Program-made: the position numbers and the translations under genes
DNA from: Jiangella alkaliphila
GTDB taxonomy: Bacteria > Actinomycetota > Actinomycetes > Jiangellales > Jiangellaceae
Length of the DNA: 64,000 nucleotides
NCBI RefSeq assembly: GCF_900105925.1
Contig: NZ_LT629791.1
Span: 6,976,001 to 7,040,000, forward strand
Reading direction: 5' to 3'
Shown: piece by piece, positions 12,352-48,499 of the stretch
Position numbering within the stretch: the stretch's first letter is position 1
Layout of the letters: each line of letters opens with the position of its first letter
Notes under the pieces: generated by a model
What the model was told of the DNA's origin: nothing
Database searches by the model: none
What the model saw: the letters and a program-made list of their open reading frames with translations, nothing else

Positions 12352-15300
12352 GCGGTCGTGGTTCCTTCCGTTGCGGGGTCGGGTTCGCTCGCCGTGACGG
12401 CCGCCGCACGCGCCGCCCGGCGGCGCCGAACCAGCAGCACCGCCGCCGCGGCGGCGATCAGCACGCCCGCGCCGGCGCCGACGAGCCACCAGGGGAAGGA
12501 GCCGCTGGTGATCTCGGCGGGGCGGACGAGGGCGAGCACCTGGTCGGTCGCGGAGTCGACGAGGTAGAGGTCGCCACCCGGGCCGACCTCCAGGGCGGTG
12601 ATCGAGCGCTCCGTGTCGCCGTCCAGCTCCGTGTCGAGCACCGTGCTGATGGTGCCCTCGGCGTCGATGCGACGGACGCCGTCCCCCGTGGCCACGTAGA
12701 CGTCGCCCTCGGGGCCGACGGCGACGTCGGCCAGGCCCCACAGCTGTGCCCGCGTGGCCGGCCCGCCGTCGCCGTAGTCGTCGTCGACCACGACGTCGTC
12801 GCTGTCGGTGGTGCCGGCGAAGGTCCGGGCGTCCTGGCCCGGGGCCGCGGCAACGACCTGCCCGCTCCCCTCGTCGGCGACGTACACCGTGCCGTCCGCG
12901 CCGACGGCGAGGGCGGACGGGAGCGCGAGCGTGTCGGCGTCGAACCCCGGCACCGCCGCGATCAGGCCATCGGAGTCGACGCGGTAGACCAGCTCCCCGA
13001 TGTCCAGCAGGTACACCGTGCCGTCCGGCCCGACGGCCACGTCGCGCGGCTGCACCAACTGGGTGGTCGCCAGCGCGCCGTCGACCACCGGGTGCTCGCT
13101 GTACGCCCCGCCGGCGACGGTGACGAGCCGGCCGTCGGGGTAAATGCGCACCACGGAGTCGCCGAGAGCCGCGTAGACCTCGCCGCCGGGGCCGGTGGCC
13201 AGCCGCCGGATCGAGTCCAGCCGTGGGTCGGCGGCCGGCGCACCGGCCAGCTCGGTGCCCTCGAGCCGCCGAAGCCGCCCGACCTGTGGCTCGGCGACGA
13301 AGAGCGTGCCATCCGGCGCGACGGCGACGCTCATGTCGCCGGTCAGATCCGCCGCGTCGGCCGGTTCCGCGGCCACGACGTCGCGGAAGTCGGCCACCGT
13401 CTCGATGATGCCGTCGGCGCCGATGCGGCGGACGAGGTCGCCGCGGGTGCCGCCGAGCACCAGGCTGCCGTCGGGTGCGACGTCGACCGTCTCCGGCTCG
13501 TTCACACCGGCCTCGGCGGCCGGGCCCCCGTCGCCGGTGTCGTGCGGCGAGCCGGTGCCGGCGACGGTGGCGATGACGCCGTCGGCGCCGACCCGGCGGA
13601 TCCGGCTGTTGAAGGTGTCGGCGATGTAGAGCCCGTCGGGGCCGGCAGCGACGTCGAGCGGCGTGTTCAGCTCCGCGGCCCCGGCCGGCCCGCCGTCGCC
13701 GCCGAAGCCGCCTTCGCCGGAGCCGAAGTAGCTGACACCGGCCAGCGCGACCAGCGTCCCGTCGGGCCGGACCATGCGCACCCGCGGCACGCCGTTCTCG
13801 ACGACGTAGACGTTGCCGGCGGCGTCGACCTCGACCGCGACGGGCTCATCCAGGCTGGCTTCGACGGCTGGCTGGTCGTCGGCGTAGCGTTCGCCGCCGC
13901 CGGCCACCCGGGTCAGCAGGCCGTCCGGGCTGACCCGGCAGATCAAGTCTCGGCCGGGGTCGGCCAGGTAGAGGGTGCCGTCGGGGGCAATCGCCACGTC
14001 GGCAGGCAGGCCGAGCGCCGTCTCGGTGGCCGGCTCGCCCACGCACGTCGGGGGCGGCTCGTCGTCGGCGTTCTGGTCGGGGGCGGTGCCGGCGACCGTC
14101 GTGATGACGCCGTCGGTGCCGACCCGGCGGATCGTGGCGTTCGACGAGTCGGCGATGTAGAGGTTGCCCTCGGCGTCGACGTCCAGGCCGGCGGGTCCGT
14201 TCAGCTGCGCCTCGCCGGCCGGTCCGCCGTCGCCGCGGCGGCCGGCCTCGCCGGTGCCCGCGGCGACGGTCACGGTGCCGTCGGCGTCGACGCGGTGGAC
14301 GACGTGGCGGTGGCTGTCGGCGACATAGGTGACGCCGTCAGGGCCGGCCGCGACGCCCGAAGGGCCGGCCGCCGGGCCTGGCGGCGGCACCAGCTCCTCC
14401 AGCGCGGCGATGTCGGGGTCGGCCGCCACGCCGGCCACCGTCACCAGCTCGCCGGGGTCGCGGTCGCCCCAGAGCGACCCGGCCGGTGGCACCTGGTCGT
14501 CGCGCGCCGCGACGTCGTCCGGGAGCCGCCACACCCGCGAGCCGGCCGTGTAGTAGATCGCGCCGTCGGTCCCGGCGGCGACGTCCTCGACACTGGCCGG
14601 GAGCGGACCGGCGACCTCGATCGCGCCCTCGCGTAGCACGAGCAAGCGGCCGTTGGCCTCGTCGGTGACGTAGAGCTCGCCGCCGGGGCCGGCTGCCAAC
14701 CGGCGGCCGTCACGGGCGGGCGTGCCGTCCAGCCCCGACCCGGCGTCGATCAGCGCGAGGTCGGCGTCGGCGATGACGCCGAGGGTCCCGTCGGGAGCCA
14801 CGTGGTACACGTCACCGAACGGCTCGAGCGTGAAGAACACCGTGCCGGCGGTGTCGACGGCGATACTGGTGATCGGCGTGTCCATGGCCGCGTCCGTCGC
14901 CGGTCCGCCGACGGCCCCGTCGCCAACGAACACCTCGCCGCCGCCCGCGACCGTCGTGATGACGCCGTCGGTGCCGATGCGTCGGATCCGGCCGTTCATG
15001 GTGTCGGCCAGGTAGACGTTGCCGTCGGCGTCGACCGCGATGTCCGTGGGGTCGAAGATCTCCGCGTCGGCGGCGAGCCCCCCGTCGGCGTCGCCGGCCT
15101 CGATCGTGTCGTCGCCGGCACCGGCCAGCACGGTGACGGCGCCGTCGGGCGCGATGCGGCGGACGTCCTGGTTGGCGGCCAGGTACACGCTGCCGTCGGG
15201 GCCGACCGAGCTGGCGATCGGCGTGCTGCTGAGGCTCGAAGACCCCCCGCCCGGCGGCTCCGGTCCGTCGGTCTCGGGTGGGCGCTGGGCCCGGGCGCCG

Positions 15301-43820: not shown

Positions 43821-45110
43821 TCAGAACTGCTCCTCCTCGGTCGACCCCTTGAGGGCCAGGGTGTCGCTGTCGGGGTTGAGCGCCGTCGACACCAGGTCGA
43901 AGTAGCCGGTGCCGACCTCGCGCTGGTGCTTCGTCGCCGTGTAGCCCAGGTGCTCGGCGGCGAACTCGCGCTGCTGCAGGTCGACGTACGCGGTCATCGC
44001 GCTCTCGGCGTAGCGGCGGGCGAGGTCGAACATGCCGTAGTTGAGCTGGTGGAACCCGGCCAGCGTGATGAACTGGAACCGGTAGCCCAGGTCGGCGAGG
44101 TCGCGCTGGAAGGTCTCGATCTCGGCGTCGTCGAGATGCGCCTTCCAGTTGAACGACGGCGAGCAGTTGTACGCCAGCATCTTGTCCGGGTACTGCTCGC
44201 GCACAGTCTCGGCCACCTTGCGGGCCAGGGCGAGGTCCGGGGTGCCGGTCTCGACCCACAGCAGGTCGGCGTACGGCGCGTAGGCCAGCGCGCGGGCCAG
44301 CACCGGCTCGACGCCGGAGCGGGTCCGGTAGAACCCCTCGGCGGTCCGCTCGCCGGTGAGGAACGGCTGGTCGATCGGGTCGACGTCGCTGGTGATCAGC
44401 TCCGCGGCCAGCGAGTCGGTGCGCGCGACGATGATCGTCGGGACGCCGGCGACGTCGGCCGCGAGCCGGGCCGCGTTGAGCGTGCGGATGTGCTGCGACG
44501 TCGGCACCAGGACCTTGCCGCCGAGGTGGCCACACTTCTTCTCCGAGGCCAGCTGGTCCTCGTAGTGGACGCCCGCCGCGCCGGCCGCGATCAGCGCCTT
44601 GGCCAGCTCGTACGCGTTCAACGGCCCGCCGAACCCGGCCTCGGCGTCGGCGACGATCGGCGCCAGCCAGTCGAACCCGGGGTCGGCGCCCTCGGCGTAG
44701 GTGATCTCGTCGGCGCGCAGCAGCGCGTTGTTGATGCGGCGGACGACGGTCGGCACCGAGTTGACCGGGTAGAGGCTCTGGTCCGGGTAGGTGTTGCCGG
44801 ACGTGTTGCCGTCGGCCGCGACCTGCCAGCCGGACAGGTAGATCGCCTTGAGTCCGGCCCGGACCATCTGCACCGCCTGGTTGCCGGTGATCGCGCCCAG
44901 CGCGGCCACGTGCTCGGGCTGGTGCAGCAGCTCCCACAGCCGCTCGGCGCCGCGGCGGGCCAGCGTGTGCTCCTCGCGGACGCTGCCGCGCAGCCGCACG
45001 ACGTCCTCGGCGGAGTAGGTGCGGCGCACGCCGGACCAGCGGGGGTCGCTCGCCCACTGTTCGGCGAGGGCGGCGGCCTCGGTGGTCCGGCGGTCCAGGG
45101 TCGTCGTCAT
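43821..45110 (-). CDS. aceA: Isocitrate lyase
   Basis: The 429-residue enzyme cleaves isocitrate to glyoxylate and succinate, allowing growth on acetate and fatty acids through the glyoxylate shunt. The catalytic cysteine is Cys193 in the KKCGHLGGK signature. [20 protein letters not shown] and [11 protein letters not shown] are further active-site segments. The short form without the large insertion is the actinobacterial/proteobacterial type. The ATG at 45110 follows GGGAG. The gene is divergent from a RamB-like regulator, as in corynebacteria and mycobacteria, where RamB controls aceA. Confidence 0.96.
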
Positions 45111-45123
45111 GCTCACTCCCGTG

Positions 45124-45205
45124 TTCGGTGAATTGCTGACGTCCTCCACCGTGCGGCGGCCTCACCACCTCCATCCACCGCTAGAGTGGGTGAAGATTCA
45201 CCGAA
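45124..45205. promoter_or_regulatory. Shared motif in the aceA-ramB spacer
   Basis: TTCGGTGAAT (45124-45133) and its exact inverse ATTCACCGAA (45196-45205) stand on either side of the divergent spacer, each close to one gene. A GTGAA..TTCAC palindrome overlaps the second site. Such paired sites suit a regulator that controls both aceA and itself. It is not the AAAGTTTGCAAA-type site described for corynebacterial RamB. Confidence 0.55.
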
Positions 45206-45225
45206 TTTCACTGAATAGGAACTTC

Positions 45226-46668
45226 ATGGCCGATCTCGACCTCGTCACCCTGGGCCGCCGCATCCGGCACGCCCGCAAGGCCGCCGGGCTCACGCTCGGC
45301 GCGCTCGCGACCGCCGTCGACCGCGCGCCGTCGCTGCTCTCGCAGATCGAGAACGGACGGCGCGAGCCGCGGCTGACGCTGCTGCAGGCCATCGCGACGG
45401 CGCTGGGCGTCGACGTCGCCGACCTGATGAAGCCGGAGCCGCCGTCGCACCGCGCGGCGTTGGAGATCGCGCTCGAGCACGCGCAGGCCGACCCGTTGTA
45501 CTCGTCGCTCGGGCTGCCGCACGTGACGGCCGGCCCCACCATGCCGGCGGAGGTGCTCGAGTCGCTGGTCGGGCTGCACGGCGAGCTGCGCCGTCGAGCC
45601 ACCGAGCAGGCCGCGACCCCCGAGGAGGCCCGCCGGGCCAACGCCGAGCTGCGCCGGCAGATGCGCGACCGCGGCAACTACTTCGCCGAGACCGAGCAGG
45701 TCGCGGCCGGCATCTCCCGCGCGGTCGGGCACGACGGCGGCCCGCTCACCGAGCGCGGCGTCGGCGAGCTGACCACGCACCTCGGCTTCACCCTGCATCG
45801 GGTCGCCGACCTGCCGCGCGCCACCCGCTCCATCACCGACCTCGAGGACCGGCGCATCTACCTGCCCGCGTCGGGGCGCGGCGGGCACGACCCGCGGACC
45901 ATCGTGCTGCAGACGCTCGGCCATTTCGCGCTGGGCCATCGCGAGCCGGCCGACTACGCCGACTTCCTGCGCCAGCGGGTCGAGACCAACTACTTCGCCG
46001 CGGCGCTGCTGATGCCCGAGGCGGCCGCCGCCGACTTCCTGCAGCGGGCGAAGGCCCGGCGCGAGCTGGCCATCGACGACCTGCGCGACGTGTTCGCCGT
46101 CTCCTACGAGACCGCCGCGCACCGGTTCACCAACCTCGCCACCCACCACCTCGGGCTGCCGGTGCACTTCATGCGGGTCGGCGAGGACGGCGTCATCTAC
46201 AAGGCCTACGAGAACGACGACGTCACGTTCCCCGCCGACGTCACCGGCGCCATCGAGGGCCAGCTGGTCTGCCGGTTCTGGGCGTCGCGGGCGGTGTTCG
46301 CCGCGCCCGACCGCTACGCCACCCACCACCAGTACACCGACATGGGCCGCGGCACGTACTGGTGCACCACGCACGTCGAGAGCACGCCCGAGGGCGACTT
46401 CGCCATCGACGTCGGCGTGCCGTACGCCCACTCGAAGTGGTTCCAGGGCCGCGAGACCACCGTCCGGGCCACGTCGGGCTGCCCCGACCCGTCCTGCTGC
46501 CGCCGCCCGCCGGCCGCGCTGGCCGGCCGCTGGAGCAGCCGGGCCTGGCCCAGCGCGCGGGTCCACTCGCACCTCCTGGCAGCATTGCCTCCAGGCACCT
46601 TTCCGGGGGTGGACGACACCGACGTCTACACCTTCCTGGAGCGACACTCCGGAGCCGGATCCGATTAA
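45226..46668 (+). CDS. ramB: RamB-like acetate/short-chain fatty acyl regulator
   Basis: A 480-residue regulator. An XRE-type helix-turn-helix (about residues 8-62; LGALATAVDRAPSLLSQIENGRREPRLTLLQ) precedes a coiled region, an ImmA/IrrE-like (DUF955) domain (about 200-300) in which the HExxH motif reads LGHFALGHRE, and a DUF2083 region. The latter has a cysteine cluster (CPDPSCCRRPP). This architecture is that of RamB and related regulators of glyoxylate-cycle and methylcitrate genes. ATG 45226 follows AGGA. The divergent position relative to aceA supports the name. The symbol is by architecture and context. Confidence 0.88.
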   Translation: MADLDLVTLGRRIRHARKAAGLTLGALATAVDRAPSLLSQIENGRREPRLTLLQAIATALGVDVADLMKPEPPSHRAALEIALEHAQADPLYSSLGLPHVTAGPTMPAEVLESLVGLHGELRRRATEQAATPEEARRANAELRRQMRDRGNYFAETEQVAAGISRAVGHDGGPLTERGVGELTTHLGFTLHRVADLPRATRSITDLEDRRIYLPASGRGGHDPRTIVLQTLGHFALGHREPADYADFLRQRVETNYFAAALLMPEAAAADFLQRAKARRELAIDDLRDVFAVSYETAAHRFTNLATHHLGLPVHFMRVGEDGVIYKAYENDDVTFPADVTGAIEGQLVCRFWASRAVFAAPDRYATHHQYTDMGRGTYWCTTHVESTPEGDFAIDVGVPYAHSKWFQGRETTVRATSGCPDPSCCRRPPAALAGRWSSRAWPSARVHSHLLAALPPGTFPGVDDTDVYTFLERHSGAGSD

Positions 46669-46728
46669 CCGGACATTCTTCCGGAATCTGGTGACAGACC
46701 CACAAACTGTCGGTAGGTTCTGCTGTTA

Positions 46729-46879
46729 CTCGGCCGGTGCGATCCACCGGCCCGAGGAGGGTCATGCAATACCGAGGGGCGATGGGGGCCGAAGGTCCCC
46801 CTGAGGCCTCGGTCCAGGGCTGATGTCGACTGGAGAGAGCTCGTGATCGTTGCATGACCCGACTCTTGAACAATGTTCA
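46729..46879 (+). ncRNA. Candidate structured leader RNA upstream of amidase gene
   Basis: A strong hairpin (CTCGGCCGGTG / CACCGGCCCGAG, 46729-46756, one bulge) is followed by a domain closed by the perfect 11-bp helix GGGTCATGCAA (46759-46769) and TTGCATGACCC (46850-46860). Inside are nested helices ACCGAGG/CCTCGGT and GGGGGCC-GAA-GGTCCCC, and a smaller CCAG/CTGG stem. The palindrome TGAACAATGTTCA (46867-46879) lies just before the ribosome-binding site. The multi-branched plan and place ahead of a peptidoglycan hydrolase suggest a riboswitch or protein-binding leader. It does not match a class I can recognise. It fills most of the 232-bp spacer between ramB and the amidase gene. Confidence 0.5.
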
Positions 46880-46900
46880 GGGCGACAGAGGGGATCCGCA

Positions 46901-48421
46901 GTGACGAGTCAACCCAGCCGACGCGCCGTCCTGGCGCTCGGCGCCGCCATCGTCGTGACGCCCGTGGTCACGACCGCCGCCAACGCCGCAGGCAGCCCCG
47001 TCCGGCCGGTCACGAACCTCGCCGGCGCGTTCGCCGCGGCGGCCCGCCGGCACAGCGTCCCGCGCGACCTGCTGGTCGCGCTCTCCTACACCGTCACCCG
47101 CATCGACGACCACGCCGGCCAACCCAGCCAGGCCGGCGGCTACGGCGTCATGCACCTGATCAGCAACCCGTCCACCGACACGCTGGGCACGGCCGCCGCA
47201 CTCACCGGCCACGGCCTGGACGCACTCAAGACCGACGTCGCGGCCAACGTCGACGGCGCCGCCGCCCTGCTGCGCTCGCTGGCCGACGAGGCCGGGCTGA
47301 CCGCCGCCGGGCGCCGCCGCATCGACGCCTGGTACGAGCCGGTCGCCCGCTACTCCGGGTACGCCGACCCCTCGGTCGCCCGGCTCGAGGCCGACACCGT
47401 CTACGAGACGCTGGAGCGCGGCCTGGCGCTGCAGTCGCACGGCGAGACCTACACCGTCGCCGCCCGCCCGGTCGCCCCCGAGCACGGCTCGTTCGCCACC
47501 GTCCCCACGCTCGACCAGCGGTTCTCCGTCAAGAGCGACGACTACGGCCCGGCCCGCTGGGTGGCCGCCAACTCCGGCAACTACCGCGTCGCCAACCGGC
47601 CGAGTGACTACGCGATCGATCGGGTTGTCATCCACACCGTGCAGGGCTCGTACGCCGGCTGCATCTCGTGGTTCCAGAACCCGAGCGCGAACGTCTCCGC
47701 CCACTACGTCATCCGCTCGTCCGACGGCGAGGTGACGCAGATGGTGCGCAACAAGGACGTCGCCTGGCACGTCGGCAACACCAACAACCGGTCCATCGGC
47801 ATCGAGCACGAGGGCTGGGTCAACGACCCCGCCTGGTACACCGAGGCCATGTACCGCTCGTCGGCCGCGCTGACCCGCCACGTCTGCGACCGCTACGGCA
47901 TCCCGCGCACCCGCACCAACATCATCGCGCACAGCGAGGCCCCCGGCGCCACACACACCGACCCCGGCCCGAACTGGGACTGGAACCGGTACATGGGCTA
48001 CGTCAACGGCGGCACCCCGCCGTCGTTCAGCGTCATTGTCGACAACGGTGGCGCGTTCACCGCCAGCGCCAACTGGGTGACGGCGTCGGCGCCCGGCCAG
48101 TACGGCAGCAACCACCGGCACGTGCAGCCGGTGCTGGCCAGCGACGCGGCCTGGTTCAGCGCGAACATCCCGTCGGCCGCCAACTACCTGGTCGAGGTCT
48201 GGTACCCGCAGGACCCGGCGAACAACTCCCGCACGCCGTACATCGTCGCCACCCCGAGCGGCAACCAGACGGTCTACGTCGACCAGCGCAGCAACGGCGG
48301 CCTGTGGGTCTCCATCGGGACGTTCGCGCTGGCCGCCGGCAGCCGGCCGGTGGTCGGCGTCAGCCGCTGGACGTCGACGGCCGGCTCCATCGAGGCAGAC
48401 GCCGTCCGCATCTCTCGTTAG
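46901..48421 (+). CDS. Exported N-acetylmuramoyl-L-alanine amidase with golvesin-type C-terminal domain
   Basis: A 506-residue exported enzyme. The signal peptide has a Tat-like SRRAVLALGAAIVV. A helical N-terminal domain (about residues 40-185; AAAARRHSVPRDLLVALSYTVTRID) resembles a lysozyme-like or substrate-guiding region. An amidase_2 domain (about 240-365) has the zinc histidines in VVIHTVQGSY and AHSEAPGATHTDPG. The C-terminal region (about 380-506; NGGAFTASANWV, YLVEVWYPQDPANNSRTPYIV, QTVYVDQRSNGG) matches the golvesin C-terminal-like carbohydrate-binding domain. It cuts the bond between peptidoglycan sugar and stem peptide. GTG 46901 follows GAGGGG. Confidence 0.9.
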   Translation: MTSQPSRRAVLALGAAIVVTPVVTTAANAAGSPVRPVTNLAGAFAAAARRHSVPRDLLVALSYTVTRIDDHAGQPSQAGGYGVMHLISNPSTDTLGTAAALTGHGLDALKTDVAANVDGAAALLRSLADEAGLTAAGRRRIDAWYEPVARYSGYADPSVARLEADTVYETLERGLALQSHGETYTVAARPVAPEHGSFATVPTLDQRFSVKSDDYGPARWVAANSGNYRVANRPSDYAIDRVVIHTVQGSYAGCISWFQNPSANVSAHYVIRSSDGEVTQMVRNKDVAWHVGNTNNRSIGIEHEGWVNDPAWYTEAMYRSSAALTRHVCDRYGIPRTRTNIIAHSEAPGATHTDPGPNWDWNRYMGYVNGGTPPSFSVIVDNGGAFTASANWVTASAPGQYGSNHRHVQPVLASDAAWFSANIPSAANYLVEVWYPQDPANNSRTPYIVATPSGNQTVYVDQRSNGGLWVSIGTFALAAGSRPVVGVSRWTSTAGSIEADAVRISR

Positions 48422-48432
48422 CCGTTCCACCT

Positions 48433-48481
48433 TGATCATGTTCTCTCGCGGCGCCTCAGCGACCGCGAGGGAACATGATCA
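48433..48481. repeat. ATGATCAT-family hairpin repeat, subtype A
   Basis: The arms 48433-48451 and 48463-48481 are 19 bp long with one T/G wobble, around an 11-nt loop. The sequence TGATCATGTTC(T/C)CTCGCGG and the loop GCGCCTCAGCGA match the element at 8101-8167 closely. It lies between the convergent amidase and helicase genes. Confidence 0.85.
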
Positions 48482-48499
48482 TGAGCGTGTGCCGAGCCG

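Follow-up and report, generated by a model that had tools for sequence, protein, structure and literature searches.

A mobile structured repeat of the Jiangellaceae in the 5' leader of a Jiangella alkaliphila amidase gene

The stretch of 64,000 nucleotides of Jiangella alkaliphila DNA analysed here (the window) contains, at 46729–46879, a strongly folding region ahead of a peptidoglycan amidase gene, and the question that it raises is whether this structure is a regulatory RNA belonging to that gene. The region is flanked by a regulator gene with HTH and M78 domains and, on the plus strand at 46901–48421, by a gene with a GTG start that encodes an N-acetylmuramoyl-L-alanine amidase with Amidase_2 (Pfam PF01510, 7.5e-34) and Golvesin_C (PF25275, 5.9e-39) domains. 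The N-terminus of the amidase, MTSQPSRRAVLAL, looks like a Tat signal. The regulator, which we take to be RamB-like from its domain make-up (HTH and Peptidase_M78), is divergent from an isocitrate lyase gene on the minus strand, the pair occupying 43821–46668. On the other side, between the amidase gene and the next, convergent gene, lies a near-perfect hairpin of about 20 bp at 48432–48485 (TTGATCATGTTCTCTCGCGG...CCGCGAGGGAACATGATCATG) that may act as a terminator or represent a further repeat. The explanation that best accounts for the locus as a whole, with a probability that we put at about 0.82, is that a small non-coding mobile element of the Jiangellaceae was inserted in the amidase leader, where it would act as a portable leader, and that it would be mobilised in single-stranded form.

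That the predicted 5' leader would be structured, as originally proposed, is borne out both by its folding energy and by the compensatory changes among copies described below. The segment 46650–46900 has a minimum free energy (MFE) of −118.7 kcal/mol compared with −97.9 ± 4.9 kcal/mol for shuffled sequences (z −4.2, with 0/200 shuffles as low), and positions 46750–46869 folded alone give a z of −3.3. A strict sigma-70 promoter scan of the leader returned no match. Direct reading of the sequence, together with conservation among relatives, suggests a promoter GTGACA-N17-TAGGTT at 46691–46719 on the plus strand, with TAGGTT present in 11/11 relatives and GTGACA in 10/11, and a putative transcription start near 46726. 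The strong hairpin that had been proposed to precede the multibranched structure is present at 46732–46752 on the plus strand, with 8 bp, but it is native to the leader and predates the multibranched part. It occurs in the otherwise empty leaders of nine of the 11 relatives, being missing from L018 and L020, and it shows paired changes in relatives, such as GGTG/CACC to GGCG/CGCC (T-A to C-G). The 13-nt palindrome TGAACAATGTTCA ahead of the ribosome-binding site is also where it was said to be (46867–46879), but it is most likely coincidental, because it lies across the right-hand boundary of the insertion (46876/46877) and the other copies of the element with which it was compared do not have it. 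Its absence from other copies also led us to reject it as an operator.

The multibranched part of the leader is inserted DNA, found at this site in this lineage only. Alignment of the filled leader with the empty leaders of relatives places 125 bp (46752–46876 on the plus strand, with ends certain to about 4 nt) into CCACCGGC / GGGCGACAG, and the query pieces that flank it map next to each other, or almost so, in the relatives. The orthologous leader is empty in 11/11 other Jiangella genomes, each of which gave one empty-site match across the junction, and the junction sequence has diverged in G003 and G006. The inserted element belongs to subfamily S1 of a structured repeat of Jiangella, whose covariance model matches the window copy at 46756–46869 with 120.7 bits. 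Since the amidase leader lacks the element in every one of these relatives, we regard it as a mobile-element insertion and not as a regulator that evolved for the amidase gene, and the idea of an amidase-specific regulatory RNA is set aside. The S1 copy appears to have entered a leader that was long to begin with, some 25 nt downstream of the putative transcription start and 24 nt upstream of the GTG.

BLAST of 46725–46895 against its own genome recovered the query locus itself plus 15 others at E < 1e-6, and a covariance model (R1) built from ten copies gave 63 matches in this genome at E ≤ 1, the weakest of which (E 0.001–0.02) may not be true copies. A match in the window itself at 14958–15041 (E 0.047) was taken as chance, its conserved core being missing. 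At E ≤ 0.01, the model matched 62 times in G000, 56 in G007, 46 in G002, 30 in G011, 20 in G001, 12 in G006, nine in G003, six in G005, two in G008, once in G010 and never in G004 and G009, so that the 11 other Jiangella genomes range from 0 to 56 copies. Outside Jiangella, two further genera of the Jiangellaceae contributed eight copies from four genomes (G018 with one, G019 with four, G020 with two and G021 with one), and six other Jiangellaceae genomes outside Jiangella had no model match at E ≤ 0.01; a match is thus present in 14 of 22 Jiangellaceae genomes. A class-wide search of 393 genomes at E ≤ 1e-4, whose stricter filters may miss weak copies, gave 13 genomes with matches, all of them Jiangellaceae. 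Scanning of a contig collection of 84,980 species with an exact pattern recovered five stretches, only from Jiangella anatolica, J. rhizosphaerae and J. aurantiaca; the exact-pattern scan of viral contigs, with a pattern narrow enough to find only those five stretches in genomes, recovered none, and neither a phage collection nor a plasmid collection gave a match to the element.

For analysis of the family we used 85 copies, comprising the 63 of the own genome and 22 of the 182 counted in other Jiangella; these are not independent, as some are orthologous or tandem. Subfamilies S1–S5 were set by regular expressions, with S1 as a catch-all that contains some divergent copies, and L067, L082, L090, L099, L102 and L104–L106 are probably not true S1. 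Three head-to-tail pairs in the own genome (L071, L072 and L095) have a period of 123–125 nt, equal to the length of the element. Further head-to-tail tandems of this period occur at G002:C356:3898-4137 and G003:C1:3737328-3737565.

Copies of the family keep the fold of a three-way junction, and the 11-bp closing helix and nested internal helices of the original prediction are all present. In the window copy, on the plus strand, the closing helix P1 pairs 46759–46769 with 46850–46860, and its arms form part of a 16-nt inverted repeat (46754–46769 and 46850–46865, 88%). P2, at 46771–46813, contains the inner hairpin P3 (46784–46790 with 46794–46800, closed by a GAA loop), and is followed at 46814–46833 by P4, a small hairpin of the form CCAG-GGC ... 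GTC-GA-CTGG that varies among copies and is the weakest helix. The covariation check that had been proposed for this leader was carried out on the element copies. An alignment of 15 copies made with MAFFT only has two-sided changes in 13 of 30 predicted pairs. In an alignment of 52 copies, fitted to the covariance model and hence to a model that favours standard pairs, two-sided changes affect 21/35 pairs (0/500 shuffles as high), distributed as 10/11 in P1, 5/9 in P2 and 3/8 in P3. Overall, 92.9% of cells in this alignment are paired, as against 31–46% when partners are slid by 1–3 columns; the proportion is 97.3% for P2, 99.8% for P3 and 73.4% for P4. Mismatch cells in P1–P3 comprise 135 G.U and seven A.C on the sense strand, while P4 shows no such strand asymmetry (G.U 26, A.C 29). 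The sense strand also has the lower MFE in 85/85 copies, with a mean difference of −11.9 kcal/mol compared with −0.28 (sd 8.4) for 300 random 115-mers. The excess of G.U over A.C and the better fold of the sense strand in every copy argue for a constraint that acts on one strand and is RNA-like, as recognition of inverted repeats in double-stranded DNA would not yield strand-asymmetric covariation that includes internal helices. Preservation of the fold might serve mobility rather than the host gene.

Insertion is not peculiar to the amidase site. Joined-flank searches in five copy-poor genomes covered 28 (18 + 10) of 30 loci, with L069 and L074 left out, and gave empty-site matches for ten sites filed as S1 (the window included, and L043 being a remnant), one S2, two S4 and no S5 site, and for 12 of the 17 S3 copies queried. 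The inserts are mostly 118–138 bp in size. In G005, the L039 site is filled by an orthologous copy, and the L043 site (L133) holds an apparent decayed remnant, reduced to a short tail-like piece. Signs of target-site duplication are inconsistent, the slack at the junctions being 6 nt at L041, 5 nt at L044 and 0 at L039, L073 and the window. The L073 junction is clean, reading GCGGCC/ATG in the relative and GCGGCC-(124 bp)-ATG when filled; an empty orthologue of L073 is present in G008.

The copies mostly precede the next gene in the sense orientation, in many cases immediately ahead of the start codon, as judged with a simple and crude codon-usage gene finder that leaves several starts uncertain. 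The next gene is in sense for 69/85 copies (p 5e-9 if copies are independent), and among the 16 that are not in sense with it some S1 and S4 copies are antisense to their neighbors. By group, the sense orientation holds for 30/42 S1, 8/8 S2, 20/20 S3, 7/11 S4 and 4/4 S5 copies, giving 32/32 for S2, S3 and S5 together. A role as leader is therefore weaker for S4 and for S1, the group of the window copy. In four S2 copies (L053, L064, L112 and L074), the frame of the upstream gene appears to cross the whole element and to end at the TGA of the element's tail (CTGATGTC), shortly before the next gene (by a few nucleotides), an arrangement in which translation coupling is possible. In the S4-like L087 and L090, the element adjoins a reversed −10-like CCTA(G/A) of a divergent, leaderless-looking gene, and S4 may prefer the other side of leaderless-type promoters.

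The downstream genes offer no basis for the proposed link to cell-wall turnover. Of the 51 references made to downstream proteins, 31 (the window's and 30 others) were scanned with Pfam. These include citrate synthase, NuoH, a MoxR ATPase, a prolyl oligopeptidase, a luciferase-like monooxygenase, a response regulator, a DinG-like helicase, a phosphoketolase, pantoate ligase, GntR and LysR regulators, a cobalamin adenosyltransferase and two 2-hydroxyacid dehydrogenases, with two proteins lacking a Pfam match, and no function is common to the 31. The lack of a c-di-AMP riboswitch signature, remarked on originally, agrees with Rfam, which gave no match at gathering score in the 64 kb, to that or to any other riboswitch class. 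At E ≤ 10, 361 bases of the leader matched only L31-Firmicutes (14.6 bits against a cut-off of 33.3), and in 12 loci with further copies no copy was matched, two weak matches lying elsewhere in L077. The thought that portions of the element distantly resemble glycine-riboswitch motifs was dropped, as Rfam gave nothing.

Subfamily S3 occupies a more definite position than the others. The motif TANNNT ends 5–12 nt before the element in 16/20 S3 copies (background 0.004 per window), and in 1/42 S1, 0/8 S2, 0/11 S4 and 0/4 S5 copies. The four S3 exceptions are one copy that comes second in a tandem pair and three that immediately follow an apparent upstream stop codon. Three S3 copies are operon-internal rather than at a transcript 5' end, and 17/20 carry AGG or GGAG in their tail. 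Orthologous empty sequences were compared for 12 of the 20 copies, the eight left out including L085, L086 and L088, for which joined-flank matches are listed. At ten of these 12 sites, TANNNT-N5..8-RTG is present in every one of the 37 empty orthologous sequences, and at the two operon-internal sites in 0/9; the total of 37/46 compares with 36/6000 random 55-mers and with 0/46 at S1, 0/5 at S2 and 0/8 at S4 empty sites. Location of TANNNT some 12 bp ahead of the start codon is described as a mark of leaderless genes in bacteria, notably in actinobacteria, where leaderless initiation is common (PMC3160421). The target genes were therefore probably leaderless before insertion, and S3 has repeatedly supplied them with a complete leader, in most cases with a Shine-Dalgarno sequence, that separates the promoter from the start codon.

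Taken together, these data are consistent with the following course of events. A non-coding element of about 125 bp inserted into a 5' leader that the amidase gene already possessed and, when transcribed, would form a folded 5' leader there, as it would for whichever gene received it. The closing stem would end shortly before the start region and leave the Shine-Dalgarno region free, most S3 tails apparently bringing their own. As a portable leader, the element could alter translation initiation and mRNA stability of the recipient gene. Movement would proceed via a single-stranded form, RNA or ssDNA, with an enzyme supplied in trans; we think a single-stranded intermediate most likely because the fold belongs to one strand and the copies are biased towards the sense orientation. 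A bolder proposal, that this is a family of mobile 5' leaders inserting in sense at the 5' ends of genes, with S3 going precisely between the −10 box and a leaderless start codon and so converting leaderless mRNAs into leadered ones with a Shine-Dalgarno sequence, and traveling by an RNA or ssDNA route that dispenses with the known repeat-moving enzymes, is put forward tentatively, as less likely than not.

Among the other explanations, an ordinary DNA MITE, moved through terminal inverted repeats by the DDE transposase of some IS and with the RNA fold as a by-product, is unlikely but has several points in its favor: the 16-nt inverted repeat lies near the ends of the element, the slack at L041 and L044 is compatible with target duplication, and size and dispersal resemble those of ERIC and RUP. 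The inserted DNA, however, extends about 15 nt beyond the 3' repeat arm, L039, L073 and the window show no duplication, and double-stranded recognition does not explain the asymmetric covariation of the internal helices. Nor was a parent IS seen with the arm TTGCATRACCCGA, a single 13-mer: in an exact search of four genomes, 21/21 matches (in G000, G007 and G002) fell inside copies, and G011 had none. We consider it improbable that the element is RNA-mobilised, a retroelement entering through mRNA 5' ends. Its sense orientation and one-strand folding would suit such a route, as would S3 insertion where presumed leaderless mRNAs begin, with no target duplication at the cleanest site, but the reverse transcriptase domain RVT_1 (PF00078) is absent from the five copy-richest genomes (G000, G007, G002, G011 and G001) and occurs, among the 22 Jiangellaceae genomes, in G006, G012 and G015 only; moreover, some S1 and S4 copies are antisense to their neighbors and three S3 copies are internal to operons. 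Still less probable is transport in the form of ssDNA by a Y1 transposase, after the manner of REP/RAYT, with a 5' GGAG foot, a hairpin and strand specificity as its marks. NGAG at the foot of the stem starts 68/85 copies, the fold is strand-specific and the cleanest junction is free of duplication, but the Y1 transposase domain (PF01797) was found in 0/22 Jiangellaceae genomes with a control positive in 5/14, and on this ground the REP/RAYT explanation was rejected. A search with PF04986 (Y2/IS91) was also empty, and its control likewise gave no match. Finally, control of the amidase gene by a riboswitch or attenuator that senses a metabolite or the wall can be dismissed as very improbable, for although a covarying structured RNA is located in the leader, the orthologous leaders are empty, functionally unrelated genes are preceded by the same element, and the single Rfam match is at chance level.

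The mobile element that we favor has its closest likeness in the ERIC/IRU/RU-1 repeats, which are described as dispersed sequences of about 127 bp with a palindromic closing stem, transcribed with their neighbors and reported to have an orientation-dependent effect on mRNA (PMC2229807). ERIC is enterobacterial, from another phylum, and the likeness drawn here is one of features; the Jiangella element differs in its branched three-way junction, in its strand-specific covariation and in the placement of S3 between a promoter and a leaderless-type start codon. Correia/NEMIS, RUP, CIR and RPE are likewise non-autonomous repeats of about 100–200 bp with structured transcripts, but most have TA termini, which the window copy lacks, and RUP has a matching IS (IS630-Spn1), whereas no partner was found for the Jiangella element with the one arm tested. 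REP/BIME elements with RAYT share strand-specific hairpins and the GGAG-like motif at the foot, and differ from the branched element of about 125 nt described here, which occurs in a family where no Y1 transposase was found in any of 22 genomes. Riboswitch and attenuator leaders, such as the ydaO c-di-AMP riboswitch, resemble it as structured 5' leader RNAs, some tandem pairs included (compare L071, L072 and L095), but the Jiangella element is mobile, has no regulon common to the 31 scanned proteins and has no Rfam match. With 63 matches, mobility, empty sites, a conserved fold and a predicted structured transcript, the element can be classed with the ERIC-like repeats in the broad sense, as a mobile, lineage-specific element with RNA structure; what sets it apart is that the fold belongs to one strand and that copies are placed in leaders. 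In the open-licence literature we found no small repeat that combines strand-specific RNA covariation with such exact placement of the insert, after the promoter and ahead of the start codon, and to our knowledge none has been described. That small repeats jump into bacterial transcripts is already known. If the S3 pattern is true, it would add to these systems a one-step switch from leaderless to leadered translation that has been repeated in closely related species, and its natural pairs of filled and empty sites would make the evolution and the cost of leaderless initiation directly testable.
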